Shown here: positions 38,054-53,948 of the stretch, one piece after another
How positions within the stretch are numbered: position 1 is the stretch's first letter
How the letters are laid out: every line of letters begins with the position of its first letter
Source: Pseudomonas sp. PDNC002
GTDB lineage: Bacteria > Pseudomonadota > Gammaproteobacteria > Pseudomonadales > Pseudomonadaceae
DNA length: 64,000 nt
Reading direction: 5' to 3'
Assembly (NCBI RefSeq): GCF_016919445.1
Contig: NZ_CP070356.1
Coordinates: forward strand, 1,061,501-1,125,500
Notes under the pieces: generated by a model
Told to the model about the DNA's origin: nothing
The model's database searches: none
What the model saw: only the letters and a program-made list of their open reading frames with translations
Program-made: the position numbers and the translations under genes

Positions 38054-39160
38054 ATGAATGCGTTCAACCCCGGAGTTCCCCCGCAAAACCGAGCTCCGCA
38101 GTCCATCGGCTTCCTGCTGCTGGACAACTTCACCCTGATCTCCCTGGCCTCGGCGGTGGAACCGCTGCGCATGGCCAACCAGCTGTCCGGACGCGAACTC
38201 TACCGCTGGCACACCCTGAGCCTCGACGGCCGCCAGGTCTGGGCCAGCGACGGCCTGCAGATCACCCCTGACGCGGCCTGCGACAGCGCCCCGCAGATGG
38301 ACACGCTGATCGTGGTCGGCGGCGTCGGCATCCAGCGCAGCGTCACCCGCGAACACACCACCTTCCTCCAGGCCCAGGCGCGCCTGGGTCGCAAGCTCGG
38401 CGCCGTGTGCACCGGCAGTTGGGCCCTGGCCCGCGCCGGCCTGCTCGACGGCTACGACTGCTCGGTGCACTGGGAATGCCTGGCCGCCATGCAGGAAGCC
38501 TTCCCCCGCGTGGCCATGAGCACCCGCCTGTTCTCCATCGACCGCAACCGCTTCACCTCCTCCGGCGGCACCGCGCCGATGGACATGATGCTGCACCTGA
38601 TCGGCCGCGAGCACGGCCGCGAGCTGTCGGCGGCGATCTCCGAGATGTTCATCTACGAGCGCATCCGCAACGAGCAGGACCACCAGCGCGTGCCGCTCAA
38701 GCACATGCTCGGCACCAACCAGCCCAAGCTGCAGGAAATCGTCGCGCTGATGGAAGCCAACCTCGAGGAGCCCATCGACCTCGACGAACTGGCCGTCTAC
38801 GTCAACGTCTCGCGCCGCCAGCTCGAACGGCTGTTCCAGAAATACCTGCACTGCTCGCCGTCGCGCTACTACCTGAAGCTGCGCCTGATCCGCGCACGCC
38901 AGCTGCTCAAGCAGACGTCGATGTCGATCATCGAAGTCGCCTCGGTCTGCGGCTTCGTCTCCACGCCGCACTTCTCCAAGTGCTACCGCGAGTACTTCGG
39001 CATCCCGCCACGCGACGAGCGCCAGGGCCAGCCGATCGGCCAACCGGTCATGGTCATGCCCATCCCGCAGGACCTTGCCCTCATGCCCAACTCCTCGGCC
39101 ATCTCGGCCCTCAGCCAGGCCCAGGGCGAATCGACCTTCGCCAGCGTGCGAGTGCTCTAG
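38054..39160 (+). CDS. gbdR: AraC-family glycine betaine/dimethylglycine regulator GbdR
   Basis: 368 residues. An N-terminal DJ-1/PfpI (GATase1-like) ligand domain (about 18-190; IGFLLLDNFTLISLASAVEPLRMAN, AVCTGSWALARAGLLDG, RFTSSGGTAPMDMML) is followed by a C-terminal AraC double helix-turn-helix (about 225-330; IDLDELAVYVNVSRRQLERLFQKYL, IIEVASVCGFVSTPHFSKCYREYFG). GbdR activates betaine and dimethylglycine catabolism, choline uptake and phospholipase genes in P. aeruginosa. The position after sdaB is the same as PA5379-PA5380. Confidence 0.93.
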   Translation: MNAFNPGVPPQNRAPQSIGFLLLDNFTLISLASAVEPLRMANQLSGRELYRWHTLSLDGRQVWASDGLQITPDAACDSAPQMDTLIVVGGVGIQRSVTREHTTFLQAQARLGRKLGAVCTGSWALARAGLLDGYDCSVHWECLAAMQEAFPRVAMSTRLFSIDRNRFTSSGGTAPMDMMLHLIGREHGRELSAAISEMFIYERIRNEQDHQRVPLKHMLGTNQPKLQEIVALMEANLEEPIDLDELAVYVNVSRRQLERLFQKYLHCSPSRYYLKLRLIRARQLLKQTSMSIIEVASVCGFVSTPHFSKCYREYFGIPPRDERQGQPIGQPVMVMPIPQDLALMPNSSAISALSQAQGESTFASVRVL

Positions 39161-39180
39161 ACGTCCCTTATTGCGGCAAC

Positions 39181-39210
39181 AAAAAAGGGAGGCCAATGGC
39201 CTCCCTTTTC
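39181..39210. terminator. Bidirectional terminator after gbdR
   Basis: A 10-bp stem AAGGGAGGCC / GGCCTCCCTT (39185-39194, 39198-39207) with AAT loop, preceded by As and followed by TTC. It marks the right edge of the conserved choline block. GC content drops beyond it. Confidence 0.8.
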
Positions 39211-39325
39211 ACGCACGCACACCCATGTTCGTATTGGTACCAAAAGCGTTGCGGATCTGATCCTGAGTCGCGAACAGTCAGATAACAGGAAAGCGCTCCG
39301 CTATTTCCTGCCCCAGTTCCCGAGA

Positions 39326-40738
39326 TTAAAAGGCTTGTGTCGCGCTTAGAAATACGCGGAACTGCTCATAACTGTAGTACTCAATATTGCTATCGACTTT
39401 CTTGTAGGAAAAATTCAGTTTTGGCATAACACCCAGGACGGAAAAATCACGATGCCACAGGGAAAGTAGATAATTGTCCTCACGATCCTTGCGCCGTATA
39501 GAAAATATATCGTCATCATCCGCATATTTTCTCTCTAGAATCCCTATAAGAAACGACGCTGATAGCCGATACGGAAACTCGGCCTCGAACCCCGTTCGCA
39601 GCCCCACGAGGTTATTGGTATCGGCCTCCAAACGCGTATTCTGCTTGCCTAGATCCGCTCCACCATAGAGCGCCAAGCGACTGCTGAAGGCGTAACCCAC
39701 GGTAGTGGAAAAGAGCGAGCTCTGCCCATCCTGATAGCGATATCGCGCGCTATCATAATGTAAGCCTTGATACTCGATCGCATTGCTTAATTGCCAGTTC
39801 GAGGAAAAGTATCGGGTGTATTCCGTACGAACTCCGAAACCTGAGGAGTAGGCATCGTTTCCATACCAACGCTTTTCATAGAAGGGTAGAAGAGAAATCC
39901 GCTGTTTTGCATCAGAGTACGAATATCCAACGTAACTCCGCGCAAGGATATCGTCGTATTTGTGATTATCCCAGTAACTACGGCCATAGACGACGCCCTG
40001 GAGTCGCAGGCTATGATTATCACTCAAATGCAAGTCCCGCTGCGCACTACCGGCGTAAGAAAACCCATGTCCTTTCTGAGGATAAGAATCGGGATTTCTT
40101 AGGAAGCGCTTACCGCCAATATCCACATACCTTCCACTTGAGGCATTATTGACGTTGTCATCGTTCAAGTAGCTGAAATCCACCGTCCCAGACCAATCAT
40201 GAATACGCTCGATCGCCTGCAAATAGGATTGGACATTCTCCTGTACAACCAACGGCAGTCGGTCAGCACTCGCCTTTTCAAACTGATACTTGGCCGAATC
40301 ATACTGTTGATTTTCATACAGCATCTTAGCCAAATCCAACCGAATACGAACAAGCTGCGGATTCGCAGCAAGTATCCCACGATAGATTGCAATTGATCTT
40401 TTGTAGTCCTTTTCACTCCAGGCCAATGCTCCCTGAGCATAGGAGATCAGGACTGGATCTGGATTCGCCGAGCCTGCATATATGGGAAGTATGCTTCGCA
40501 CAATGTCCCAGGCCCCGTCCTCCACGGCCTGACTTAGAAATTTCCCTGCCAGCTCAGGATCGCGCCCCAACTCCGTGTTGGTGACGACATTCTTGCCAGG
40601 GGAGCCAGATTCTTTGCGCTGATAATCCTCAGGCCTGATGTCATTACCCGCTGGTACAACCACTGCTTCAGGAACTGCACAGAATGCATTAAGTGAATAA
40701 AGAAAAAGACATACGTACGCGTAGCGTTTTATTTTCAT
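39326..40738 (-). CDS. Slam-type surface lipoprotein assembly modifier (DUF560 outer-membrane protein)
   Basis: 470 residues. Signal peptide about 1-21 (CLFLYSLNAFCAVPEA). The N-terminal half is a TPR-like helical domain (residues ~70-175; ALAWSEKDYKRSIAIYRGILAANPQLVRIRLDLAKMLYENQQYDSAKYQFEKA). The C-terminal half is a beta-barrel of alternating Tyr/Ser/Arg strands (DFSYLNDDNVNNAS, YAGSAQRDLHLSDNHSLRLQG) ending in a terminal Phe (FLSATQAF), the BAM signal. This layout is that of Slam, which moves lipoproteins to the outer face of the outer membrane. The gene follows a surface-lipoprotein gene, the usual Slam partner arrangement, and is AT-rich. No good ribosome site precedes it. Called from fold pattern and context. 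Confidence 0.82.
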   Translation of the reverse strand: MKIKRYAYVCLFLYSLNAFCAVPEAVVVPAGNDIRPEDYQRKESGSPGKNVVTNTELGRDPELAGKFLSQAVEDGAWDIVRSILPIYAGSANPDPVLISYAQGALAWSEKDYKRSIAIYRGILAANPQLVRIRLDLAKMLYENQQYDSAKYQFEKASADRLPLVVQENVQSYLQAIERIHDWSGTVDFSYLNDDNVNNASSGRYVDIGGKRFLRNPDSYPQKGHGFSYAGSAQRDLHLSDNHSLRLQGVVYGRSYWDNHKYDDILARSYVGYSYSDAKQRISLLPFYEKRWYGNDAYSSGFGVRTEYTRYFSSNWQLSNAIEYQGLHYDSARYRYQDGQSSLFSTTVGYAFSSRLALYGGADLGKQNTRLEADTNNLVGLRTGFEAEFPYRLSASFLIGILERKYADDDDIFSIRRKDREDNYLLSLWHRDFSVLGVMPKLNFSYKKVDSNIEYYSYEQFRVFLSATQAF

Positions 40739-40755
40739 GGGCAGAATGTATTGAA

Positions 40756-40792
40756 TATAAAAAGGGAGGGTAAGATTTGCTCCTACCCTCCC
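40756..40792 (-). terminator. Terminator between the lipoprotein gene and the Slam gene
   Basis: GGGAGGGTA (minus-strand 40792-40784) pairs with TACCCTCCC (40772-40764), then TTTTTAT. It lies in the 75-bp gap, so most transcripts should end after the lipoprotein gene and Slam would depend on read-through. Confidence 0.8.
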
Positions 40793-40813
40793 CGCAATAT
40801 CGACTGACTATTT

Positions 40814-41656
40814 TTATTGCTTGGATGCGCCAAAGGCGATGTTCTTCCTTGCATCTTTTTCAAAAGTTGTAATACCTACCAACTCTGAGGCATCTGGACC
40901 GTAGAAGTGTCCGCTCATGCTGCCCGTTTCGCCACCTGACTTGGCGGTGCCCGAGATCCCTCCACCATTGATCGAGCCGGTCATGGAAACGGTATCAAAG
41001 CCTGCGCGCTGTACTGTTGCCCCGCTGATAGTTTTCGCAGCGAAGTCGACATTGAAGGAAATCTCGGCACTGCCACCGGAAACAGATACGCCATCGGTGG
41101 TGTTGCTCCTGATCGCTTTACCCACATAGGTAGCAGTACCTTGCGTCGGAACTTGCTCCGCCGTAGTCGGGTTCACGCCTGTGTAGAAGTATTCCGTCGT
41201 GGTATGCGCCTTGGAATACCATGCACCGTACCTTGCGTAACCATTAGCGCCATTGCTGCCATACGATAATGTGCCGTTTTGTCCAGCTGACATCGACGTT
41301 CCAGTGATAGGGCTCATGGTGTAACTGGCGCCTGAGGGAGCGACATACGTCTGGCCTGATGCTGTTCCAGCTGTCGCGCTACTAGCAGGTACGCCGGTTA
41401 CACTACCACTACCACTACCACTACCACTACCATTGCCATTGCCATTGCCATTGCCATTGCCATTGCCATTGTTCTGACCTTGCCCGCTACCACCAGCTTG
41501 TCCCTCGCTGGCATTCGTCCCTGTCGGACTTTCATTGGAGCTAGGCGTATCGCTTGAACTGCTACTGTGATGACCGCCGCCACCCGACGAGCACCCCATA
41601 GCTAGGCAAACTGCCATTCCAATTGCGGTAAAACGCCCAAGTTTAATAAATTCCAT
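40814..41656 (-). CDS. Probable Slam-dependent surface lipoprotein with Asn-Gly/Ser-Gly linker
   Basis: 280 residues. Lipoprotein signal with Cys22 (MAVCLAMGC-SSGGGG), then a flexible Ser/Gly/Asn-rich linker of ~65 residues containing about seven Asn-Gly and five Ser-Gly repeats. The C-terminal ~165 residues form a beta-rich domain with short strands ending in Gly motifs (GYARYGAWYSKAH, GTATYVGKAIRS, AEISFNVDFAAKTISGATV, GSMSGHFYGPDASELVGITTF). This ending is the beta-barrel pattern seen in TbpB, HpuA and hemophilin-like Slam substrates. A sigma-70 promoter candidate is at 41723-41751 and GAGAG precedes the ATG. What it binds (heme, metal-protein or host factor) is unknown. Confidence 0.78.
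   Translation of the reverse strand: MEFIKLGRFTAIGMAVCLAMGCSSGGGGHHSSSSSDTPSSNESPTGTNASEGQAGGSGQGQNNGNGNGNGNGNGNGSGSGSGSGSVTGVPASSATAGTASGQTYVAPSGASYTMSPITGTSMSAGQNGTLSYGSNGANGYARYGAWYSKAHTTTEYFYTGVNPTTAEQVPTQGTATYVGKAIRSNTTDGVSVSGGSAEISFNVDFAAKTISGATVQRAGFDTVSMTGSINGGGISGTAKSGGETGSMSGHFYGPDASELVGITTFEKDARKNIAFGASKQ
41398..41471. repeat. Hexanucleotide tandem repeats inside the lipoprotein gene
   Basis: About five CACTAC units (from about 41401 to 41430) are followed by six full CATTGC units and a partial one (41431-41471). They encode Ser-Gly and Asn-Gly repeats. Units are multiples of three, so slippage would change linker length without shifting the frame. Confidence 0.85.
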
Positions 41657-41722
41657 TTTCTCTCATCCAAAACACTCAGATTATTCGAACTGCCATTCCA
41701 TCAGCGTGGAATAGAGAAAATG

Positions 41723-41751
41723 ACTGTATTTTATTAACCTGGGATCGACAA
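41723..41751 (-). promoter_or_regulatory. Candidate sigma-70 promoter of the lipoprotein/Slam unit
   Basis: On the minus strand TTGTCG (41751-41746), a 17-bp spacer and TACAGT (41728-41723) lie about 66 bp before the lipoprotein start. The rest of the 346-bp gap 41657-42002 is AT-rich and shows no convincing gene. No Fur-box-like sequence was recognised. Confidence 0.4.
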
Positions 41752-42002
41752 TAGAAGGTCATGGAAGCGGTACATTCATGCAACGTAATTTCTAGTTTCC
41801 TACATAGGAAAAATAAGAATTCGCATAAAAAGTGGCGATTTCACTTTCACTACTCTTATTCGGTCCGGTCATGGCCACGTCACGAAATACGAACACCCGA
41901 AATTCTTTCTATCTCATTCTGGAAACGGCAATCCCCCGTAAACCGCCCCCTCTTTATCCCTCGCAAACTTACAGAGAAGAAAGAGATAAAAATGGGATAG
42001 AT

Positions 42003-42365
42003 TTATTTTCTGTACTCTAATCCGGGATCATCGCCCAGCTTTAGAGCTGGAAAATAATCTGGCCCCTTTTTCGATTCAGGATCAGCTGGATCACTAACAG
42101 CCCTCACCTCAATTTCTCGTGCAATTGTCGTAGGATTAAGTTGCTCCAGCTTATGCACATCAATCTTGCCTAAACCCTGCATCTGGAGTTCAGAGATAGG
42201 AACTCTCAAAATACCTTTCTTACTAGCCTCCAACGGAACATGGACATCATAGCCAAGGTTCTTGTTGGCGTTCAGCCCTTGGTGTTCGGATACACTAAAA
42301 CTTCCGAGCGTCTTGCCAGGTTCAAATGTGGTGGCTCCTTGGCGTGGAACTACCGCAGCCCCTTT
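42003..42365 (-). pseudogene. Fragment of a possible orphan toxin/CDI module
   Basis: An AT-rich open frame of about 120 codons with no acceptable start: only a TTG at 42233, without a ribosome site. The frame reads on upstream (VVPRQGATTFEPGKTLGSFS, NKNLGYDVHVPLEAS) until about 42365, where it meets unrelated high-GC sequence. It ends in PDYFPALKLGDDPGLEYRK. I do not recognise the family. The composition and location downstream of the cdiA/immunity genes fit an orphan cdiA C-terminal or immunity remnant, as often found behind CDI loci; this is inference. It is probably not expressed. Confidence 0.4.
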
Positions 42366-42368
42366 TTA

Positions 42369-42514
42369 GATCGGTGATCGAATTGCTTTCGGCGCTGCGC
42401 CTGGGCGACGCGGAAGAGAATCCGTTTTCCCAGGTCAGCGGTGCGCTGTTGTTGCTGATTTCCGATGCATGGTCGTTGTATCATGCCGATCACGAGCAGA
42501 GACGGGGGCGGTAG
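42369..42514 (+). pseudogene. 3' remnant of an unrelated high-GC gene
   Basis: Forty-eight codons in the plus strand reading RSVIELLSALRLGDAEENPF and then GALLLLISDAWSLYHADHEQ before a stop. The composition is typical of the chromosome (GC-rich) while both flanks are AT-rich, and a terminator follows at 42531. It looks like the tail of a native gene truncated when the AT-rich DNA arrived. In P. aeruginosa, genes PA5381-PA5383 occupy this interval, so one of those is a candidate source; I cannot verify this. Confidence 0.4.
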
Positions 42515-42530
42515 TTAATCGCAGGCAATA

Positions 42531-42560
42531 AAACCCCAGCTCGGTGGCTGGGGTTTTTAT
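42531..42560. terminator. Bidirectional terminator downstream of the CDI immunity gene
   Basis: ACCCCAGC / GCTGGGGT stem (42533-42540, 42547-42554) with a six-base loop, followed by TTTTATTTTT on the plus strand and preceded by an A-run. On the minus strand it ends the cdiBAI transcript 7 bp past the immunity stop; on the plus strand it belongs to the truncated gene. Confidence 0.8.
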
Positions 42561-42566
42561 TTTTAC

Positions 42567-43082
42567 TTATCGAAGCGACCAGTCATGTATGGATATGAAT
42601 TGAATAGTCTGCTCAGGGGCATGCTCTAGGGAGGCTCGATGGTCTGTTACAAAACTAATTCCAAAAATATCTTTACCTCCCTTCATGGCAATGAATTCAT
42701 CTTCATCCGAATTGAAGTCCACATCAAATGACTCCGCCAACTTCAAAATACTATCCGCAGGCCTGACACCATGAAAGCTCCCTCGATAGCCGACTCCAAC
42801 AGCTATCCTGTAGAGTATTTCTCGATCCTCGAAATACAAAGAGACCAGCTCATTCATGTAGCGATAAGAAAACACAAATTGATCATCAAGACCAATCCTT
42901 CTTTTCGTACCAATCCATCCGCTACTACTCAGAAGAATATCTCTAAGATGGACATCCGGACCGTAGCACTCGAAACTTCCAATTCTTTCTTTGACCGCAG
43001 CCAGTGACTCACCTATAACAAAACCAGCTGCGCTCACGCCAGGAATCAACTCGGCATCAATATCTGGGGTAAATTTTATCAT
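42567..43082 (-). CDS. cdiI: Probable CDI immunity protein (CdiI)
   Basis: 171 residues. It starts 3 bp after the cdiA stop and is therefore co-translated with the toxin end. There is no signal peptide or membrane segment, so it is cytoplasmic. The sequence MIKFTPDIDAELIPGVSAAG, LVSLYFEDREILYRIAVGVGY and a late GISFVTDHRASLEH suggest a small alpha/beta fold. It matches no immunity family I can name. The role is inferred from position: every known CDI locus encodes the cognate immunity protein directly after cdiA. The AT-rich codon use contrasts with cdiB and most of cdiA and matches the toxin tip, as expected for a module exchanged as a pair. Confidence 0.7.
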   Translation of the reverse strand: MIKFTPDIDAELIPGVSAAGFVIGESLAAVKERIGSFECYGPDVHLRDILLSSSGWIGTKRRIGLDDQFVFSYRYMNELVSLYFEDREILYRIAVGVGYRGSFHGVRPADSILKLAESFDVDFNSDEDEFIAMKGGKDIFGISFVTDHRASLEHAPEQTIQFISIHDWSLR

Positions 43083-43085
43083 GAT

Positions 43086-46000
43086 TTATTCCCAAACCTT
43101 CCACTGCCCACCTTCGTACTTAAGGCGATTACCTTGAGTATCAAAGTACTGCTGATATCGTGTTATGGTCCCTGGGCTAAAGTCAGGCGAAGGATTGATA
43201 ACTCTAACCTCTACGCCATCGTTACGTATGAACTTATAATAAGAAGTATCGCCATGGACTCCTCCGCCAGGATGGTATTCAACTTCCTTTATTGCCGGAT
43301 GTCCTTCAACTGTAAACACCTGAGCCTTTCCTGAACTGCCTGAGCGTGCAGGCTTTGGAGTAAGAGTCGCACCATCAAGAGTCAACGATTGTTTAATGTC
43401 ATCAATCGACTTACCCCACATGCTCGAAGGCGACTCAACAATATTCCGGGGAATCCCTGCTTGTGCGGCCAGATCGTCCCTCAGTCCGGCACGCGCAGCC
43501 GCCGAAGTAGCCGGTACTTCCGCCGTCGCAATCCCTTTTGTAGCCGCCTGTGCCGCCGCTGACTCTGTCAGCTTAGCCTCAATCCTACCAATAAGAGCCC
43601 CGCCAAACTCCTTAACCAGCTTTCCAGTCGCTGTTGCAGCGCCCTTGGCTGCTCCTCCAGCTGGTATCAGGTAGTCCTCCGGCGTGCTGGTCAGGATGCC
43701 ATCACCCACCGCCAGGCCCAGTGCCGTACGGATGTCGTTTTGCAGCTCCTCCTGGCCTTTGTAGCCGACTATTTCTCCGTTGTGGTTGGTGGCCTGGCCC
43801 TGCCCGTATTGGGCTACTGCTCGACTCAGGTTGGCCCATGCTGCGCTGGCCTGATTACCCTGATAGGGCTGGTTGAACAGGTTGCTGTCGGCAAATTGTT
43901 CCGCTGTGGCCTGGAAGGCGTACACCGGCTGACCGTGGGCGAGGATCGGTTCGCCATTGGCCCAGCGTAACGGCTCGCTGCCCATGCCCATCGTCGAGAC
44001 GGTGTTAAGGGCAATCTCACTGATGTGGTCGAAGTTGGCTCTCAGACTGCTGTCCGGATTGAGGCCATTCAATTGTTTGAGCAGGCTGAGGTACTGCTCA
44101 CTCTGAGCCTTGTCCACGGCAGTGCCGGCGCTCAGGGTTAGCATGTCTTCCCAGGTCAGGCTGCCGAGGTCGATCTTGCCGTACTGGGCCTCCAGTTCCT
44201 TCGCCTTCTCGCGGATCTGCCGCTGCTCTTCCGGGTGCAGTTGGCGGTTGTAGGCAGTCGCGTTCTTCGCAATCTCCGCACCCTTGCTTACGTCGCCATT
44301 CACCGCCATGGCGGCCAGAACGCCAACGATCTGCGACTCCATCAGCTCGAACTTCGGATCGCCCTTGGCCCATTTGCCAAGGACGTTGGCCATGGCCTCG
44401 TTCACACCCGCTGCCATGGCTCCGGTCTTGAAGTCGCTGCCGGAGGCCTCGGCAAGCAAGCCGCCCATCATGGCGTGAGCAACGACTTTCTGCGGGCTTC
44501 CATCCAGGTAAACTTTGCCGCCATAGTCACCCTGAGCCCAGTTGCCCACGCTATTGAAGCCCAGTGCCATGGCGAAGTCGGTGCCCTGGCCTGCCATGGA
44601 GTTGCCCAGGTTGTCCATGAAGCTGCCGCCAAAGGCCGCTTGTTGCATGACGGCTTGGGATAACGCCTGTGCGCTGTTGTATTGCGCAAAGGCAGCAAGA
44701 CCTTTCTCGCCACCCCAGGTGCTGAGGTCGAAGCCTTTAGTGACTTGATAAGCGTTGTCGTTGGTGACCCCGTACTGTTCGTTCAACGCTGGGGATATGA
44801 TGCGCTCGCCCACGTACGCCATCGCATAGCTTTTGAGCGCATCCGATGAGGTGGCGTGTTGCAGCCCTTTGCCGATGTCTCCGCCGTTGTTGATGGTGCC
44901 CACCGCCAGGTTGCTGGCCATGGCTCCGTAAACCGGTCCCATGAAGTACGCCGCGACGATGGAAATGATCAGCGTCGGCGCAGCCCCCAGGCTGTTGTTG
45001 CTGTACTTGTAACTGTCGTGGATTTCCTGCACCGCGCGCCAATCCACATCCCCTCGCGCTTCAGCTTCCTTGATCCACGCCAGACCCGGGTCGGCCTTGA
45101 CCATCGCATCGATGGCTTGGCTGACGTCTTTCTTCTTGAGCTGCTTGTAGTCGATCTGCAGGCCTTCCACGGCCTGGATGGTCACGCCGCTCTGGGCGAT
45201 CAGTTGGGTCTGGCGGATGTCTTCGCTGGTGTTGCCTTTGCCCTTGCTGCTGTTCCACGCCAGGCTGTTGCTGCTTTTGTTGTGGCTCTCCTGGTTGATG
45301 TCCTTGGCCGCTTCGAAGGTGATTTTGCCGCTGCTGATCAGGGCGATCTGCTCGCCGGATTTCAGTTCGGCGGCCTGGTAGTGCTGGTCGCCGCCGCTGA
45401 TGGCGCTGATTGGCCCGCCGGCGGTGATTTCGCTACCTACGGCGGTGACGTGAGTGGATTCGTCGTGCTGGGTCTTTTTCTTACCCCAGCTGCCCTTTTT
45501 CTTCATGTCGTACAGCGAATAGTCGCTGTCGTTGGCGGCCAGCAGGTTGATCTGGTTGCCGGCCACCAGGTACGCCTCGTTGCCCGCGCCGATCTTGCTG
45601 GAGACCAGGGTGATGTTGTTGCCGGCGCTGACCAGTACGTCACCACCGGCATTGAGCTCGCTGGCCTGCTGCTGGATGTGGTCCTGCTGGCGGGTGGATT
45701 TCTTGCTGCCGCTGGGATCGCGCTTGTAGCTGTGTTGCTCGTTCTCCGCCGAGACCACGGTGACGTTTTGCCCGGCACTCAGGGTGATATCGCCACCGGC
45801 CTTCACCTGGCTGCCGATCAACGTCGCATCACGCCCGGCCTGCAATTCGAGGTTGCCGCCGACGGCCACCTGCGAACCATGCTGGGTGACGCTGGAGCTG
45901 CGGTTGTTACTGCCGCTCGCGCGCTCGTGGGTTTCCGCCAGCCCGGTGATAACCAGGTCGCGCCCGGCGCGCAGGCTCGCGTCGCCGCCGGCGCTCAGGG

Positions 46001-49000
46001 GGTTGGCGGTGTTGATGATGTCGCGACCGGCGTCCAGGGTGAGGCTGCCGCTGGCTTCGATGCGCGAAGCAGAGCCGATGCTATCGTCGCGGCGAGTCTC
46101 TTTTTTCGTCTGGGTTCGCGTCGAAGCAAAGTCGCGCTCGTTGACGATGTCGCCGGTGAGGGTGGTCAGGCTGACATCACCGCCTTTGATCAGGCCACCG
46201 CTGTGGTTGCGGATGCTGTCCTGGGCGAGGATGTCGAGGCGCTTGCCCGATTCGAGCTGGCCGCTGTTGTCGACTGTGTTGGCGACGATGGCGAGATTTT
46301 CACCTGCCCGAATTTCGGAGGTGTTGGTGAAGTCGCCACCTGTCACCAGGGTGACGTCACGGCTTACATTGATTGGGCTGTTGAACCGAAGATCGCCACC
46401 CGCGCTCAGGCTGAGGTCGCGCTCGGCGTTGAGCTGTGAGCCCGGTTCGCTGATGAGGCTGCCGTTCTGTGCTTCGAGGTAGACATCGCGTCCTTTGATG
46501 ACGCCGCCATCGTGGTTGTGGATGCTATCCGTCACGCTGGCAGCCACGTGGCCGCCGGACTGAATCCAGCCGGTGTTGTCCAGATTTCGCGCCGTGACAT
46601 CCAGATTGTCGGTAGCAACCAAGGCGCCCGCATTCTGCAGGGAGCCACCGGCGTAAAGGCTGATATCTCCTCCGTGAATTTCTGCCTTGTCGGCATTACG
46701 AATGTCGCCTTCGACACTCACGCCCAACCGGCCTTTGGCGTCGACCCAGCCGCTGTTGTCGAAGGTCCGAGCCAGGATGTCCGTGTCGCCATCGGATGTC
46801 AGCGCCCCTGAGTTGCTGACTTGTTGGGCGATGATGCTCAGGTCGCCGCGAGACTGCAGTTGGCCTGCATTGTTCAGGTCTCCACCGCCGGATACGGCAA
46901 CGTCGCCACCGCGAATCCCAGACTGTTGCGCGTTGTGGATGCCTTCGTTTACGTCGATGTCGAGGCGCTTGCCGGCTTCGATCCAACCTTGGTTGTCCAG
47001 CGACCTGGCCGTAACGTCCAAGTTGTTCTGCGCTGACACGACGCCCGCACTGGCTATATCACCACCGGCGCGAAGGCTGATGTCATCGCCATGGATGGCC
47101 CCCGTGGCGGTGTTACGAATGTCGCCATCGACGCTGACATCGAGCTGGCCTTTGGCGTCGATCCAGCCGTTGTTGTCGAGGCTACTGGCGCGGGCGCTCA
47201 GGTCGCCGCTGGCAACCAGGGCTCCGGCATTTTGCAGGGCGCCACCGGCGTCGATACGGATATCCCCGCCGTGGATCTCACCCTTGGCGCTGTTGCGGAT
47301 ATCGCCATCGACGCTGACATCGAGCCGACCTTTGGCGTCGACCCATCCTTTGTTGTCGAGACTTTTGGCGAGGATGCCCATGTCGCCATCGGACGCCAGC
47401 GCCCCTGAGTTGCTGACTTGTTGAGCGATGATGCTCAGGTCGCCGCGAGAGTGCAGTTGGCCAGCGTTGTTCAGCTCTCCGCCGGCGGATACGGCAACGT
47501 CGCCACCGCGAATCCCGGCCTGTTGTGCGTTGTGGATGCCCTCGCTGACATTGATGTCCAGGCGCTTTCCGGCCTCAATCCAGCCCTGGTTGTCCAACGA
47601 CCTGGACGTGATATCCAGGTTGTTCTGCGCTGAAACAACGCCGGCATTGACCATGTCGCCACCGGCATGGAGGCTGATGTCCCTGCCACGGATCGCTGCC
47701 GTAGCGGCGTTGTCGATGCCTCCGGCAACGGCGATGCCGACCTGGTTGCCAGCTGATATCCAGCCGCGGTTGTCCAGATTGCGGGCGCTGATGTTGAGGT
47801 TGTCGTTGGCCGCCAGGGTGCCGGCGTTGTACAGGCCACCACCGGCGATAAAGTTTGTGTCGCCGCCCTTGAGGGTTGCGCCGGCATGGTTGCGAATGCT
47901 GTCGGCCACGCGGGCATCAAGGCGCTTGCCTGCGTCGATCTGGCCTGCGTTTTCCAGGCTCTGGGCTCCCAGGCTGAGGTTGTTGCTGGCACGCAGGGTG
48001 CCGGTGTTGGCCAGTTGGCCACTGCTGATGAGGTTGACGTCGCGGCCCTGGATCAGCGAGCCGTCGGCCATCAGGTGGCCGTCGGCACTGGCCAGGTAGA
48101 GCACCGGCACCAGGACTCTTTCGCCGTTCACGACGTGCTCTTCCAGCCAGACGATGTCGTGGGTCAGCGCGGCAACCTGTTCGGCGGAGAGGGCGACGCC
48201 CAGGGTGAGTTGCAGCCGGGCCTTGTAGGCGACGGCGTTGTCCATCAGGTATTTGAAGACCGCGGCATCGCTATTGAGGCCGTTCAGGTAGCGCTGGCCA
48301 GTTTTTGCGATCAGTGCCTGGCTCAGTAGGTATTGCTCGTACAGGCCGTCGCCCAGGCGCTTCTGGGCACGGTCGGGATCGAAGCCGAGCAGGGCGAGCA
48401 GGTAGTCCGAGCTCATGGCACCGGATTGGCCACCCTGGCCGTTGCCACTCGGGTGGTTGTTGTTCTGGGAACCGCCCTGAGCGCTGCCCCCGGTGCTGGT
48501 GCCCTGGTCATGGCCAGTCGGGTAACCGTCCTGGTCGGGAATGCTGCCGCCGCCGGTGGTGCCGCCGCCATTGCCAGGCTGGTCGGGTATGACCGCGCTA
48601 AAGTCCGGGTCGGTGTAGATCAGGTACTTGTGGCTGGGCGTGGACCAGTTGCTGCCCGGCAGGCCGTTGACGCCGGCCGCGACGGGGACGAACCGGGCGA
48701 TGTCGACGCCGTTGTAGTCGACACTCGGGACGCTCCCCGCATTGGCAATGCTGACCGCCAGCACGTCGGCGCCCGGGCGCTTGATGCTGCCGTCGGCGTT
48801 GAGGCCTTTTGGGGGCGCCACTTGTACTTTGCCGCCATCGACGGTCACACGGACGCCAAGATGGGCCAATGCGTCGCCAGCGACGCTGTCGGCGGCTTGC
48901 CAGTCGCTGCCTGGCTGCGTCGGTATTGCGGGCGCGGCGGTGTGGCTGGGCTGATAGGCGTCGGGCGCGCCGGGTGTACCGCCGCTACCTGGTTGCGGGT

Positions 49001-52000
49001 TGCTGGAGTCGGCGAGGTGGAACAGGCCGCCCTGGGGCAGGCTGAGGTTCGGCGCGACCCGTGTGGGCATGCCCGAACCGCTGAGGGTGATGGGCGAGAC
49101 TTGGCTGCTGGCGCTGGTATCGTCCAGGCTGTCAGTGGGGTTGGCGTTCGCGCTGCCATCAAGGAGTTCGCCGTTGCCCAAACGCTCGCGGGCTTCGATG
49201 CTGACGACGCCGCCCGCGTGAATGATCGCGGGGGTACCTACCGAGCCCTGGTTGTGGAAGACGTCGGTGACGATGCGGACATCGCGCTGCGCAAAGATAC
49301 TGCTGTCGAGGTTGGCGAAGTCGTTGCCGCTGAAGATGAAGTTGCCGCCGCTTTCGAGCATGGCGGCGCGCGCCTCGCCATCCTTGCGGTTGATCAGGTT
49401 GGCGACGTTGAGGTTCATGTCGCCGACGCTGGAGAGGCGACCGGAGCTGTTGTCCAGGTACTGAGTACGCCCACCGGCCTGGCCGCTCAGGCTGAGAGCG
49501 CCGAGGCTGTAAAGATCGCCACCGGCGTTGGACAGGTTGTCCACCTGCAGGGTCATGCCATTGCCGCTGAAGATCAGGCCCTGGTTGAACAGGGATTGGC
49601 CACTGAGTTGCAGGAAGCGGCCACTGCCCAGGGTGCCGCTGTTGGCGATCTGCTGGGTGTTCAAGGAGAGGTCAGTGGCCGAGGTGATGCGACCGGCATT
49701 GCTCAGGTCGCCGGTGTCGATCCGCATCGAGGCCCGGCTGCTGATGCGCCCCGTCGAGGACAGGGTGACGTTGGCGGCGCTCAGGTCAAGGTCGCCCAGG
49801 CTACTGAGCAGCCCACCGCCGCTGTAATCGCCACGAAGGTTGAGGCTGAGGTTGCCATCGGTGGCGATGACGCCGTCGTTGCTCCAGTTGTTGCCGCGTG
49901 CGACCAGGCTTTCGGCGGCCAGGAGTTTGCCGTTGGTGGTCTGGTGGAATTCACCGATGTCGAGGTTGAGGCGCCCGGCCCGGACGATGGCGTCGTTGGT
50001 CCAGCTATCGGCCTGCAAGGTCATCAGACCGTTGGTGCCGAACAGCCCGCCGCCCTGGAAGATGTTCTGGCTGCTCAGGCCGAACTCCCCCGTGCCGGCA
50101 TGGAGGATGCGGCCGCCCTGGTTGAGCAGGCTGCCAATGTCCAGGCGAACGTCGTGGTTTGCGCTTTCGAGGGTGCCGCCATTACGGTTATCGAGCAGAC
50201 CGACCTGGAGGTGGGTGGCACCATCTTCGCCAAGGTCGCGCAGATAGCCTCCCTGGTTGTTCAGGGAGGCGGCGACCACATCGAATTTTTCCGCCGCCTC
50301 GATCAGACCATTGTGGTTGTCCAGTGCGGCACTCAGGTTCACGTCGAGAACGCCAGCGCCGATTCGCCCGCCCGTGGCCAGGCTGTTACCGGCATTGACC
50401 AGGTTTGCGCCTTGCAGGTGCAGCGCCTGGTAGGCGTAAAGGCCGCCGCCAGTGTTGTCGACAACGGGAGCCGTCAGGGTGAGGTCGCCGATGACCGCCG
50501 AAAGCGTGCCCCGACTGTTGTCGAGACCGCCGGCAATGTTCAACAGCAGGTCATTGCCCTGGATGAGGCCACCGTCCCGATTGTCGACCGTCCCCGTGCT
50601 GCGCAGGTTCAGGCCGCCGGTGGCGCTGTCGAGCATGCCGCCGGCCTGGTTGTCGAGGTTGCGCAGGGCCAGGGTCAGGTCATCCTGGCTGGCAAGCAGG
50701 CCACCCTGGTTGGTCAAATCATGCAGCTGGAGGTTGATCGCCTTGCTGCCGGCGATCAGGCCACCGCTATTGTCCAGGTCGTTGAGTTCGAGGCTGATGT
50801 CCTGCTGGCTGGCAAGCGTTCCACCCCGATTGATCACGTCGTGCAGGTTGCTCAGTAGCAGCTCACCGCCAACGGAGATGGCGCCGCCGCTGTTGTTGAG
50901 GTCCTGCCCCTTGGCGTCGTATTCGAGATTGTCACCGGCGAGCAACATGCCTTGCTCTTGCAACAGGCGGTCGACATGGAGTTTCAGGTCGCCCTGGGCG
51001 TTGATTTCTCCGCCACGATTGTCCAGCTCGGCGGTGTGGACACGTATGAGATCGCCACTGGCAAGGCGACCGCCTTCACCATTGACGATGCTGTCCCGCG
51101 CCACGAGGTAAAGAGTGTTTTGGGCCAGCATCTCGCCATGGTTGGTGATGCCGATACTGTCAACGGACAGGTTCTCGCCACTCTGAATCAGGCCTTCGCT
51201 GCCGTTATCGAGGTATTCGACAGACAGGCGCATGTCGGTGTCGCCGATAAGCACGCCGTAAGCATTGCTGAACCAGTAGCTGTTCATGTCCACCCCGCCT
51301 GCGGCGGACATGTGCCCATGGTCGTTGTAGATGCTGGCGTTGGGCTGCTGGATGAGGAGACGGCCGCCACTGGCCATCACGCCGCCGTTGTTATAGATGC
51401 TCTGGGCCGCCAGGATCAGGTCCTGGCCGGCCAGCATCTCGCCATTCAGGTTGAGCAACTGCCGTGCGTTGAAGATCGACAGCGAGCCGTCCGTGCTGAG
51501 GCGGCCGCCGGAGTTGTCGAAATCACCACCGCGCATGTCGAGCGAGAGCGAGCCTCCATCAAGTACGCCGCCATCCTGCTGCAGGTCGATCACCGACAGC
51601 TTCAGCCAGCCCGCCGCGGTGACCCGGCCGCCGGCATTGAGCAGGCGCTCGAGGTCCAGCTCGACATCCTGCCCGCCTTTGACCACGCCGCCACGGTTAT
51701 CCAGCTCGCCGCCACGGACCAGCAGGTAGCCCTGGGCGCTCAGTTCGCCGCCATCTCGGTTGTCCACCTGCCCGGCCTGCAGGCTAAGCCCGGCGTTGCC
51801 GGTAATCAGGCCGCCACGGTTGTCCAGGCTTTGCACTTGCAGGTTCACGGCGTCCTGGGCGCCGATCTCGCCCTGGCGGTTGTCCAGCGCGTCGGCTTCG
51901 ACCGCCAACACGCCACCCGAGGAGATTCGGCCGGCCAGGTTGTTCAGCGCGGTAGCCTGCAGGCGGGTCTGCGTTCCGCCCGAAATCAGGCTGTTCAGGT

Positions 52001-53948
52001 TGTCGATGCGCTCGGCGGAAACCGCCAGTTTGCCCAGGCTGAGGATTTCGCCGCTGCTTTGCTCCAGCACGCTTGCGGTCAGGTCGAGATCGCCCTTGGC
52101 AGCGATGCGGCCGTGGCTGTTGTCGAGGTCGCCCGCGTCGAGAGCGAGATTGCCTTCGGCGATCAGTTGGCCGTCCTGATTATCCAGTGCTCGCGCCTGC
52201 AGCAGCAGATCGGCGCCGCTGGCGATAACGCCTTCGCGGTTGGCCAGCGTGTCGCTTTGCACGCTGGCACCCTGGCCCAGTATCAGACCTAGGGCGTTTT
52301 CCAGGTGCCGGGCGATGCGGACTTGCAGCTCGCCGCCGGCCTGGAGCTGGCCCGCTGTATTGTCGAGTTCACCGGCCTCCAGGCTCACAGCGGAAGCACT
52401 GGAGAGTTCGCCTTGCTGGTTGCTCAGTCGCTCGGCGCGAAGATCGAGCCCCTCTCGTGCGGACAAGCGCCCGCCATCGTTGAGCAGCAGGTCGGCCTGC
52501 GCTTGCAGACGACCCTCGGCGAGCAATTGACCCGACGTGTTGTCGAGGGCCTGGACGTTTGCCTGCAGGTTGCCGCGGCTGGAAACCTCGCCGTCACGAT
52601 TGAGAAGTTGCTCAGCGGCCAGCAACAGGTTGCCATCGGCACGGATCAGCCCCTGACGGTTATCCAGTTGGCCGCCCTGCAGCGCGAGATGGCCTTGGCT
52701 GGAAATCACGCCCGCCCCATTGAGCAGATCGGCGACGAACACCGACAGCGCGCTTTGGCCAAGCACCCGGCCATCCTGGTTGTTCAGCTGGCCTGCCTTG
52801 ACGGTCAACTGGTTGGCGTTGAGTTGGCCGGCGCGGTTATCCAGCGTCCTGGCATCGATGTTCGCCTCACCGCTGGCGCCGAGGATGCCCTGGCGGTTGT
52901 CGAGCGTATCGAACGACGCGATCAGTTGCTCACCCGAGGCGATGCCCCCGCGGTTATCCAGGTGCTGGATACCGAGATTGGCCAGCGCCTGGCTGCTGAT
53001 TCGGCCTTGTTGGTTGTCAAGACTGCCGGCGACCACTGAGAGGTCGCCCACCGCGGCGATCTCGCCACCGTTCTGGTTGAGGATGTCGGTTGCCTGCAGT
53101 TGCAGGCTGCCTTCGCTGAGCAACCTTCCGCCACCGCTTTGGTCCAACTGCCCGCTGAGCGTGGCATGCAGCTCACCCTGTGCAGCGATGACGCCGTGGC
53201 GGTTGTCGACTTGTCGTGCATCGAGTTGCAGCTCGCCCGCCGAGGCGAAGTAACCTTCGTCGTTCAGCAGCGTGTCGCTGGCAACATCGAGCCACTGCGA
53301 CGCCTGGATTTCACCAGCGCGGTTGTCGAGTTGCTCGACGCTCAAGGCTACGCTGCCCGCGCCCAGTATCCGGCCGCCGCCATTGTCCAGCGTGCCGCCC
53401 TGCACCACGAGAGACTGACTGGCGCTGATCAGACCTGTGCGGTTGAGCAACGTCTCGACGAACAGCGCCAGGCTGCGTTCGCTGGTGATGCTGCCCGCCT
53501 GGTTGTCCAGGACACTCGCCCTAAGGCTGAGATCGCCTTGCCCTTCGACGCGGCCCTGGCGATTGTCCAGCCGATGAAGGTCCAGCGCTGCTGTGGAGCC
53601 GGCGTAGATTCTGCCGGTGCGATTATCGACGGTATCGGCAGTGACACTCAGGTTCCGACCGGCAAGCAGTTCGCCCTGTTCGGTGTTGTCGATGTTCTGC
53701 GCGTTGAGGATGAGGTCGTCTTCGCTGCCCAGCCGACCGCCCCGGTTATCGACCGAGGTGTAGTCCAGGCGCATTTCCCCGCTGCCGACCAGGTTGCCGC
53801 CCTGGTTGTCGAGATGATCACCCGACAGGCTCAGGCCACCGCCGATCTGCAATTGGCCGCCGGTATTGTTCAGGCTCTGGGCTTGCAGGGTCAGGGCACC
53901 TGCGGCACCGATCTGGCCATTGCCCGTGTTGTCCACTGACGCCGCCAC
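43086..53948 (-). CDS. cdiA: CdiA contact-dependent inhibition effector, C-terminal 82% (continues the frame of the ORF at 53818-56280)
   Basis: An open frame of 3620 codons without a genuine start; it is the downstream part of one cdiA gene whose 5' part is in another frame. It encodes long FHA-type repeats (NxxGxI/LDNxxG, about 49.2-53.9 kb), a non-repetitive Gly/Pro-rich segment with a YLLALLGFDPDRAQKRLGD domain (about 48.0-49.1 kb; probable receptor-binding/transition region), a second FHA repeat block, a DUF637-like pre-toxin region (about 44.2-45.1 kb) and a ~125-residue variable tip (43086-43460) after AGIPRNIVESPSS. The tip (AQVFTVEGHPAIKEVEYHPG, YYKFIRNDGVEVRVINP) should be the toxin, delivered into neighbouring cells. 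No toxin family was recognised. Two ~597-bp direct repeats lie at about 46.6-47.8 kb. Confidence 0.85.
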   Translation of the reverse strand: MAASVDNTGNGQIGAAGALTLQAQSLNNTGGQLQIGGGLSLSGDHLDNQGGNLVGSGEMRLDYTSVDNRGGRLGSEDDLILNAQNIDNTEQGELLAGRNLSVTADTVDNRTGRIYAGSTAALDLHRLDNRQGRVEGQGDLSLRASVLDNQAGSITSERSLALFVETLLNRTGLISASQSLVVQGGTLDNGGGRILGAGSVALSVEQLDNRAGEIQASQWLDVASDTLLNDEGYFASAGELQLDARQVDNRHGVIAAQGELHATLSGQLDQSGGGRLLSEGSLQLQATDILNQNGGEIAAVGDLSVVAGSLDNQQGRISSQALANLGIQHLDNRGGIASGEQLIASFDTLDNRQGILGASGEANIDARTLDNRAGQLNANQLTVKAGQLNNQDGRVLGQSALSVFVADLLNGAGVISSQGHLALQGGQLDNRQGLIRADGNLLLAAEQLLNRDGEVSSRGNLQANVQALDNTSGQLLAEGRLQAQADLLLNDGGRLSAREGLDLRAERLSNQQGELSSASAVSLEAGELDNTAGQLQAGGELQVRIARHLENALGLILGQGASVQSDTLANREGVIASGADLLLQARALDNQDGQLIAEGNLALDAGDLDNSHGRIAAKGDLDLTASVLEQSSGEILSLGKLAVSAERIDNLNSLISGGTQTRLQATALNNLAGRISSGGVLAVEADALDNRQGEIGAQDAVNLQVQSLDNRGGLITGNAGLSLQAGQVDNRDGGELSAQGYLLVRGGELDNRGGVVKGGQDVELDLERLLNAGGRVTAAGWLKLSVIDLQQDGGVLDGGSLSLDMRGGDFDNSGGRLSTDGSLSIFNARQLLNLNGEMLAGQDLILAAQSIYNNGGVMASGGRLLIQQPNASIYNDHGHMSAAGGVDMNSYWFSNAYGVLIGDTDMRLSVEYLDNGSEGLIQSGENLSVDSIGITNHGEMLAQNTLYLVARDSIVNGEGGRLASGDLIRVHTAELDNRGGEINAQGDLKLHVDRLLQEQGMLLAGDNLEYDAKGQDLNNSGGAISVGGELLLSNLHDVINRGGTLASQQDISLELNDLDNSGGLIAGSKAINLQLHDLTNQGGLLASQDDLTLALRNLDNQAGGMLDSATGGLNLRSTGTVDNRDGGLIQGNDLLLNIAGGLDNSRGTLSAVIGDLTLTAPVVDNTGGGLYAYQALHLQGANLVNAGNSLATGGRIGAGVLDVNLSAALDNHNGLIEAAEKFDVVAASLNNQGGYLRDLGEDGATHLQVGLLDNRNGGTLESANHDVRLDIGSLLNQGGRILHAGTGEFGLSSQNIFQGGGLFGTNGLMTLQADSWTNDAIVRAGRLNLDIGEFHQTTNGKLLAAESLVARGNNWSNDGVIATDGNLSLNLRGDYSGGGLLSSLGDLDLSAANVTLSSTGRISSRASMRIDTGDLSNAGRITSATDLSLNTQQIANSGTLGSGRFLQLSGQSLFNQGLIFSGNGMTLQVDNLSNAGGDLYSLGALSLSGQAGGRTQYLDNSSGRLSSVGDMNLNVANLINRKDGEARAAMLESGGNFIFSGNDFANLDSSIFAQRDVRIVTDVFHNQGSVGTPAIIHAGGVVSIEARERLGNGELLDGSANANPTDSLDDTSASSQVSPITLSGSGMPTRVAPNLSLPQGGLFHLADSSNPQPGSGGTPGAPDAYQPSHTAAPAIPTQPGSDWQAADSVAGDALAHLGVRVTVDGGKVQVAPPKGLNADGSIKRPGADVLAVSIANAGSVPSVDYNGVDIARFVPVAAGVNGLPGSNWSTPSHKYLIYTDPDFSAVIPDQPGNGGGTTGGGSIPDQDGYPTGHDQGTSTGGSAQGGSQNNNHPSGNGQGGQSGAMSSDYLLALLGFDPDRAQKRLGDGLYEQYLLSQALIAKTGQRYLNGLNSDAAVFKYLMDNAVAYKARLQLTLGVALSAEQVAALTHDIVWLEEHVVNGERVLVPVLYLASADGHLMADGSLIQGRDVNLISSGQLANTGTLRASNNLSLGAQSLENAGQIDAGKRLDARVADSIRNHAGATLKGGDTNFIAGGGLYNAGTLAANDNLNISARNLDNRGWISAGNQVGIAVAGGIDNAATAAIRGRDISLHAGGDMVNAGVVSAQNNLDITSRSLDNQGWIEAGKRLDINVSEGIHNAQQAGIRGGDVAVSAGGELNNAGQLHSRGDLSIIAQQVSNSGALASDGDMGILAKSLDNKGWVDAKGRLDVSVDGDIRNSAKGEIHGGDIRIDAGGALQNAGALVASGDLSARASSLDNNGWIDAKGQLDVSVDGDIRNTATGAIHGDDISLRAGGDIASAGVVSAQNNLDVTARSLDNQGWIEAGKRLDIDVNEGIHNAQQSGIRGGDVAVSGGGDLNNAGQLQSRGDLSIIAQQVSNSGALTSDGDTDILARTFDNSGWVDAKGRLGVSVEGDIRNADKAEIHGGDISLYAGGSLQNAGALVATDNLDVTARNLDNTGWIQSGGHVAASVTDSIHNHDGGVIKGRDVYLEAQNGSLISEPGSQLNAERDLSLSAGGDLRFNSPINVSRDVTLVTGGDFTNTSEIRAGENLAIVANTVDNSGQLESGKRLDILAQDSIRNHSGGLIKGGDVSLTTLTGDIVNERDFASTRTQTKKETRRDDSIGSASRIEASGSLTLDAGRDIINTANPLSAGGDASLRAGRDLVITGLAETHERASGSNNRSSSVTQHGSQVAVGGNLELQAGRDATLIGSQVKAGGDITLSAGQNVTVVSAENEQHSYKRDPSGSKKSTRQQDHIQQQASELNAGGDVLVSAGNNITLVSSKIGAGNEAYLVAGNQINLLAANDSDYSLYDMKKKGSWGKKKTQHDESTHVTAVGSEITAGGPISAISGGDQHYQAAELKSGEQIALISSGKITFEAAKDINQESHNKSSNSLAWNSSKGKGNTSEDIRQTQLIAQSGVTIQAVEGLQIDYKQLKKKDVSQAIDAMVKADPGLAWIKEAEARGDVDWRAVQEIHDSYKYSNNSLGAAPTLIISIVAAYFMGPVYGAMASNLAVGTINNGGDIGKGLQHATSSDALKSYAMAYVGERIISPALNEQYGVTNDNAYQVTKGFDLSTWGGEKGLAAFAQYNSAQALSQAVMQQAAFGGSFMDNLGNSMAGQGTDFAMALGFNSVGNWAQGDYGGKVYLDGSPQKVVAHAMMGGLLAEASGSDFKTGAMAAGVNEAMANVLGKWAKGDPKFELMESQIVGVLAAMAVNGDVSKGAEIAKNATAYNRQLHPEEQRQIREKAKELEAQYGKIDLGSLTWEDMLTLSAGTAVDKAQSEQYLSLLKQLNGLNPDSSLRANFDHISEIALNTVSTMGMGSEPLRWANGEPILAHGQPVYAFQATAEQFADSNLFNQPYQGNQASAAWANLSRAVAQYGQGQATNHNGEIVGYKGQEELQNDIRTALGLAVGDGILTSTPEDYLIPAGGAAKGAATATGKLVKEFGGALIGRIEAKLTESAAAQAATKGIATAEVPATSAAARAGLRDDLAAQAGIPRNIVESPSSMWGKSIDDIKQSLTLDGATLTPKPARSGSSGKAQVFTVEGHPAIKEVEYHPGGGVHGDTSYYKFIRNDGVEVRVINPSPDFSPGTITRYQQYFDTQGNRLKYEGGQWKVWE
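46590..47783. repeat. Two direct repeats of 597 bp within cdiA
   Basis: Matching blocks are displaced by exactly 597 bp (199 codons): for example CGCCCCTGAGTTGCTGACTT at 46803 and 47400, and TTGTTCTGCGCTGA at 47023 and 47620. They encode FHA repeats of the second block (GWIEAGKRLDI, SNSGALxSDGD). The repeats have diverged by point changes. Confidence 0.75.

Follow-up and report, generated by a model that had tools for sequence, protein, structure and literature searches.

A Slam translocator gene with its own lipoprotein cargo and an intergenic hairpin in Pseudomonas sp. PDNC002

We analysed a stretch of 64,000 nucleotides (nt) from Pseudomonas sp. PDNC002 (contig NZ_CP070356.1, positions 1,061,501 to 1,125,500), hereafter called the window, in which a Slam gene, coding for an outer-membrane translocator of the type XI secretion system (T11SS), lies directly behind the gene for a lipoprotein cargo. 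Both genes are on the reverse strand, the cargo gene at 40814..41656 (280 amino acids) and the Slam gene at 39326..40738 (470 amino acids), and the gap of 75 nt between them carries a terminator-like hairpin with a T run (40763..40793, reverse strand). The pair is flanked by an FHA/CdiA-type two-partner locus and by the gene of an AraC-type regulator (38054..39160, forward strand), which we take to be gbdR. It is a genuine pair of a T11SS (Slam) translocator and its own surface lipoprotein, i.e. a system of a known kind.

The translocator, its cargo and their relatives

The Slam gene was recognised from its open reading frame (ORF) and its Pfam domain matches. A TPR_Slam domain (PF24575, E 1.3e-29) covers residues 52-153 (40280..40585, reverse strand), and the SlipAM (DUF560) barrel domain (PF04575, E 9.8e-69) covers residues 182-470 (39329..40195, reverse strand), matching 288 of the 288 model positions and extending to a C-terminus that reads ...SATQAF, with Phe as the last residue. 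An earlier reading of the letters alone, referred to here as the sequence-only reading, had described a DUF560/Slam-like protein with a TPR domain and a barrel ending in Phe, and had suggested a hidden Markov model search for both domains; both were found, the barrel at full length. The protein is the single Slam match in the whole genome of the source strain, and a profile search for a solved Slam structure found none.

The cargo gene was identified by the NCBIfam model NF041636 (slam_lipo; E 1.8e-25, 90 bits at a cut-off of 80) and by its orthologues. A TbpB_B_D barrel domain (PF01298, E 2.3e-16) occupies residues 169-279 (40820..41152, reverse strand) as one stretch, which differs from the two-lobe, two-domain organisation of TbpB. 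The Pfam model FHBP_C is also matched above its cut-off (31.5 against 28.1 bits), whereas the HpuA model is matched below it (28.2 against 29.7 bits). The lipoprotein with a long linker and a TbpB/HpuA-like domain, which the sequence-only reading had described directly before the Slam gene, was thus recovered by slam_lipo and TbpB_B_D. Only one protein of the whole genome exceeds the TbpB_B_D cut-off, a second one reaching 13.1 bits and hence lying far below it. By reading, the lipobox is ...LAMG-C22 (LTA-C in the Erwinia relative introduced below), and Cys22 is followed by Ser, Ser and Gly, none of which is among the residues that PMC7857515 quotes as retaining lipoproteins in the inner membrane of E. 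coli and P. aeruginosa; the same paper calls such signals questionable. The linker, again by reading, extends approximately over residues 30-88 and is rich in Gly, Asn and Ser. Part of it is encoded by two perfect hexanucleotide tandem repeats (41401..41471, reverse strand; Tandem Repeats Finder), which specify an Asn-Gly/Ser-Gly tether at a place where the linkers of the orthologues are shorter; hence, the linker may change its length without a frameshift.

The pairing itself is supported by the family models, by the tree described below and by the occurrence of the same pair in three congeners and on a plasmid of Erwinia sp. E602, so that the sequence-only reading was right to assign the Slam its own surface lipoprotein. 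Among 25 genomes of the genus, Slam was found in four, namely in the source strain, P. jinjuensis, P. schmalbachii and a further genome, G024, and a scan of genome contigs matched only P. schmalbachii and P. jinjuensis. The Slams of the three Pseudomonas relatives are 57-60% identical to that of the window and their cargos 61-70% (aligned residues). The closest pair that was found outside Pseudomonas is that of the Erwinia plasmid (WP_212408330.1 / WP_212408331.1; Slam 45% identical), where the cargo is annotated as Slam-dependent lipoprotein and the adjoining Slam merely as 'porin family protein'. The cargo gene stands upstream of the Slam gene in all these relatives, i.e. the order is the same in the four Pseudomonas pairs and the Erwinia pair.

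In the family sample, SlipAM matches occurred in 34 of 398 Pseudomonadaceae genomes (31 over cut-off) and slam_lipo matches in 23 (19 over cut-off). Hence, Slam pairs are not foreign to the Pseudomonadaceae, and the suggestion that a Slam is out of place in Pseudomonas is not supported in that form. The class sample of 369 genomes gave SlipAM matches in 35 (28 over cut-off) and slam_lipo matches in 16, of which three, the window's among them, exceeded the cut-off.

In a tree of 58 Slams, flagged for long branches and with lipidated and soluble labels derived from the lipobox pattern, the window's Slam falls into a clade of five, consisting of the four Pseudomonas and the Erwinia proteins, all lipidated. 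This clade is nested in a clade of 14 (99/93) together with three lipoprotein-type Slams of Acinetobacter plasmids; the 14 comprise eight lipidated members, four for which neither motif nor call recognised a cargo and two labelled soluble. The remaining 23 Pseudomonadaceae rows are all placed in a soluble-cargo branch (100/99). The tree was built leaving out L183, L029 (a weak family hit of 31 bits), L188, L191, L185 and L170 as well as the weak hits L028 and L030-L033. The window's pair thus represents a second, lipoprotein-type Slam lineage in the Pseudomonadaceae, and with 4 of 25 genomes of the genus it is the rarer one.

The hairpin between cargo and Slam

The presence and spread of a hairpin in the cargo-Slam gap is the new element of this analysis. 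In the window, the gap forms 13 pairs with a T run, and none of 40 shuffles was as stable as the native sequence. A hairpin with a T run is found in all five close pairs (four Pseudomonas, Erwinia) although its letters differ, and in Erwinia it sits in a gap of 54 nt with a different sequence. Folded singly, the five gaps gave z-scores of -1.9 to -4.3, and RNAalifold returned 13 consensus pairs for the four Pseudomonas gaps, six of them changed on both sides in some row. Of 64 distinct Slam ORFs, 37 had an upstream cargo that was recognised by the cargo motif, and these 37 pairs from Pseudomonadaceae and other Gammaproteobacteria, the five close ones included, were scored. A hairpin with a T run reached -10 kcal/mol or lower in 28 of them and -13 or lower in 26. 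At the threshold of -10 it was present in the own clade (5/5) and the Acinetobacter plasmids (3/3), in three soluble groups at 7/8, 7/8 and 0/3, and in 6/10 of the rest. From the 27 ORFs with no motif-recognised cargo, which stayed outside the scoring, L165, L158 and L170 were read by hand and showed hairpins of -10.7, -13.5 and -23.0 kcal/mol (not necessarily in this order).

After identical gaps had been reduced to a single copy, -13 was reached by 11 of 18 gaps leading into Slam, compared with 8 of 71 other co-directional gaps of the same loci; these 71 belong to 26 families, and seven of the eight positives are the gap behind gbdR. Counting the P. schmalbachii region twice changed the figures to 12/19 and 9/74. 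In all eight pairs of the own clade and the Acinetobacter plasmids, 24-35 nt separate the end of the hairpin from the start of Slam. This leaves no room for a full sigma-70 promoter, and a separate Slam promoter behind the hairpin was rejected on these grounds. Moreover, the predicted pairing of the ribosome site is weaker for Slam than for the cargo in 5/5 pairs, once by 0.2 kcal/mol.

Three Rfam matches fall into 39000-43300, but none of them reaches its gathering score or lies on the hairpin. A literature search for a Slam/T11SS terminator or a DUF560 intergenic stem-loop, as far as the sources were accessible, found nothing on a cargo-Slam hairpin. The words 'terminator' and 'hairpin' are absent, by term match, from the accessible main texts of the T11SS papers PMC12282271, PMC8406197 and PMC5449769, and the two uses of 'terminator' in the part of PMC9100927 available to us concern another matter. 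In the Acinetobacter plasmids (L057, L193, L194) the hairpin of the cargo-Slam gap consists of an inverted ACCGTCTGAA-like repeat. This repeat resembles the neisserial DNA uptake sequence and may hint at an exchange with Neisseriaceae.

We propose that the hairpin lowers Slam below its cargo, either through termination or through protection of the cargo message. A wider claim, to which we give slightly less than an even chance, is that Slam operons in general contain, between cargo and translocator and near the start of the latter, a fast-changing but structurally conserved hairpin, which acts as an attenuator or mRNA divider and yields much cargo and little Slam. It would have arisen, or persisted, in a number of unrelated cargo lineages and represent a built-in stoichiometry device of the T11SS.

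Several points weigh against such a role of the hairpin. In the RNAalifold alignment, nine of the 13 pairs cannot form in one row, and covariation contributes a term of 0. Nine of the 37 scored pairs, including all three of one Pseudomonadaceae group, have no hairpin at -10, and the counts are not independent because the members of a group are related to each other. A rougher first control gave 18/27 against 17/99 at -13; it was judged to be contaminated, its 17 including four cargo-Slam gaps and nine gbdR 3' ends. Homology among the fetched loci, not annotation, was the basis for calling the control genes, and the start codon of Slam was picked heuristically. Furthermore, the T run is poor in several stems, which makes stabilisation instead of termination possible, and for nilB and nilC of X. 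nematophila, separate promoters and no operon are described in the accessible part of PMC9100927.

The chromosomal site and a FecR-linked branch

The gene read as gbdR was found in 25/25 genomes of the genus and forms the conserved border of a variable site: the window's two-partner exoprotein was matched in only five of the 24 other stretches behind gbdR (up to 14 kb). Between the 3' ends of gbdR and Slam lies an inverted repeat with A and T runs (39183..39209, no strand assigned), by reading a shared terminator, and equivalents of it stand behind gbdR in congeners. The GC content is 0.48 for Slam and 0.535 for the cargo in comparison to 0.645 for the window, which confirms the AT-richness stated before, and it ranges from 0.52 to 0.59 in the pairs of four relatives. 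Of the 25 genomes, only two have the pair next to gbdR, namely that of the source strain and that of P. schmalbachii, whose Slam is 60% identical to the window's.

The sequence-only reading had seen the pair as inserted into a conserved locus and acquired. Since the pair is AT-rich and lies in a variable site beside gbdR, its acquisition at this locus is plausible, and its presence in only 4/25 genomes of the genus fits the same idea. However, the conserved part of the locus is gbdR itself, whereas its flank varies, and P. schmalbachii shares the gbdR site; hence, the insertion need not be recent.

Several possible vehicles or targets were considered and rejected. A plasmid origin was dropped because the best match among 64 plasmid records with a Slam match, 25 of them Klebsiella, is the Erwinia Slam with 45% identity, the one record that also matches the cargo. 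On one of the Klebsiella plasmids (L196), the Slam gene adjoins a TonB-dependent receptor and a TonB gene. As regards phages, a pattern scan of viral contigs gave 103 pattern matches, none confirmed as a relative, and a phage collection yielded two distant matches of 24% identity, both in records named Acinetobacter phage MD-2021a. The pair had no blastn match in E. coli genomes. No convincing direct repeats flank it, and the sole tRNA of the window, tRNA-His at 6480, is far away.

On the other side of the pair, the coding sequence of the CdiA/FHA-type exoprotein is broken up into two ORFs, which overlap and are read in different frames (43086-53948 and 53818-56280, reverse strand). A short orphan coding remnant (42003-42300, reverse strand) lies between the gene in the immunity position (42567-43082) and the cargo; it is possibly a displaced CdiA C-terminal piece, and neither Pfam nor NCBIfam gave a match for its ORF 42003-42233. 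In G024 (L035/L200), the pair is found at a different chromosomal site, but again directly behind an FHA/CdiA-type locus, which is accompanied by several orphan small ORFs.

A separate observation concerns divergent DUF560 loci from the samples taken of the family and of the class. In 20 of 21 rows with no recognised TbpB-like cargo (L029, L171-L188 and L190), a gene for a FecR-domain protein follows at -23 to 142 nt downstream. The FecR match exceeds the Pfam cut-off in 19 of them and is below it in L171, whereas L191 has none. This check covered 21 of the 27 Slam ORFs with no motif-recognised cargo and left out L158, L164, L165, L170, L195 and L196. Sixteen of the FecR-linked rows form one deep branch of the tree, and a term-match search found no paper in the collection searched that contains both DUF560 and FecR. 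FecR-domain proteins are candidates for a second class of partners of DUF560 translocators.

Mechanism, rival readings and known systems

As best explanation of the whole, with a probability of approximately 0.8, we consider a T11SS pair that displays its lipoprotein on the surface and is probably transcribed as one unit, in which the hairpin would cut the amount of Slam. The sequence data show the identity of the two genes, their pairing, their lineage and where the hairpin occurs, and surface display and export path are here modelled on known Slams. The 280-residue lipoprotein would be exported by Sec, lipidated at Cys22 and sorted to the outer membrane, staying unfolded in the periplasm, possibly with the help of the Skp/OmpH family, of which a gene is present in the source genome. 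In the accessible part of PMC9090332, Slam1 proteoliposomes are reported to transport unfolded TbpB, with a higher yield in the presence of Skp. The TPR domain of Slam would recognise the cargo and the barrel would pass the C-terminal TbpB-like domain outward, where it is expected to fold while remaining tethered by the flexible Gly/Asn/Ser linker, the length of which would partly be set by the hexanucleotide repeats. What we say on transcription, on the ratio of Slam to cargo and on the ligand is inferred: both genes are probably transcribed together, and the hairpin, as a partial terminator or mRNA stabiliser, together with the weak ribosome site would lower Slam below the cargo. The exposed handle may serve in binding a surface ligand or in adhesion, which has in our view about an even chance and is somewhat likelier than the capture of heme or metal.

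The idea of heme or metal piracy was already part of the sequence-only reading and proved to be weak. It assumes that the cargo is a surface-anchored hemophilin/HpuA-like protein handing heme to a TonB-dependent receptor encoded elsewhere, and we regard it as unlikely, giving it roughly one chance in four. The closest solved relatives of the cargo are indeed hemophilins (8glo, E 5e-9 with the single protein and 1.5e-14 with a profile), but what is matched is chiefly the barrel that cargo proteins of this type share, and the HpuA model fails to reach its cut-off. According to the accessible part of PMC8560813, the heme ligands H43 and H106 of HphA sit in the N-terminal clamp, whereas residues 88-150 of our cargo (clamp limits by reading) contain no His, and the Erwinia relative lacks H151. 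The missing clamp His is not decisive, since hemophilin itself uses a single His (same source, as far as accessible). Furthermore, the best match to a Fur box in the 400 nt upstream of five cargo genes has only 10-12 of 19 positions, and no TonB, heme or heme oxygenase gene was recognised in reading the neighbouring ORFs, most of which were judged by reading instead of a library search.

Slightly less probable still is that the pair is carried with contact-dependent inhibition (CDI) islands, riding at the 3' end of CdiA-type two-partner loci, and that the displayed protein acts as adhesin or competition factor in cell-cell contact. Such a locus does directly precede the pair in the window and, at a different chromosomal site, in G024, but this linkage applies to two of the five pairs: the window's two-partner proteins had no match in the 17-19 kb around the P. 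schmalbachii and P. jinjuensis pairs or in the 13 kb around the Erwinia pair, and variable sites gather unrelated cassettes. We consider it very improbable that the two genes are foreign DNA, silent or in decay. The low GC of the pair, the lack of a detectable strong sigma-70 promoter upstream of the cargo and the neighbouring CdiA-type gene split into two frames would fit decay, but both ORFs are intact, the barrel and the cargo motifs are kept across four species at approximately 60% identity, and the cargo-Slam hairpin is kept among the relatives.

The pair adds a lipoprotein-type Slam system from Pseudomonas, a genus that is tractable in the laboratory, and the cargo-Slam hairpin offers a testable rule for the balance of cargo and translocator as well as a marker for finding cargo genes. 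Should the FecR-linked branch be confirmed, it would suggest that this translocator superfamily works with partners of a second type. In the literature listings searched, and in term matches or sections of a few papers, we found no Slam pair of Pseudomonas named.

Among the described systems, T11SS subcluster 1A (PMC8406197, as far as accessible) is similar in that a translocator with TPR and DUF560 domains adjoins a lipidated TbpB_B_D cargo. It differs in that 75.1% of the 1A-associated cargo is lipidated with two TbpB_B_D domains, compared with one here, and in that no TonB or iron gene was recognised beside the window's pair and the host is Pseudomonas; the placement near 1A rests on our own tree with the Acinetobacter plasmid pairs and not on the network of that paper. 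The cargo may also be likened, by description, to the type 'Disordered N-terminus 1' (PMC12282271, accessible part), with which it shares an elongated disordered N-terminus before handle and barrel. With the hemophores hemophilin and HphA (PDB 8glo, 8gm3 and 6om5; PMC8560813, accessible part) it has the homologous C-terminal barrel in common, whereas the lipobox, the short clamp lacking His in residues 88-150 and the absence of a recognised receptor gene beside the cargo set it apart. The pair on the Erwinia sp. E602 plasmid shares both the gene order and the hairpin in the gap, although its intergenic sequence differs and is 54 nt long instead of the 75 nt found here.

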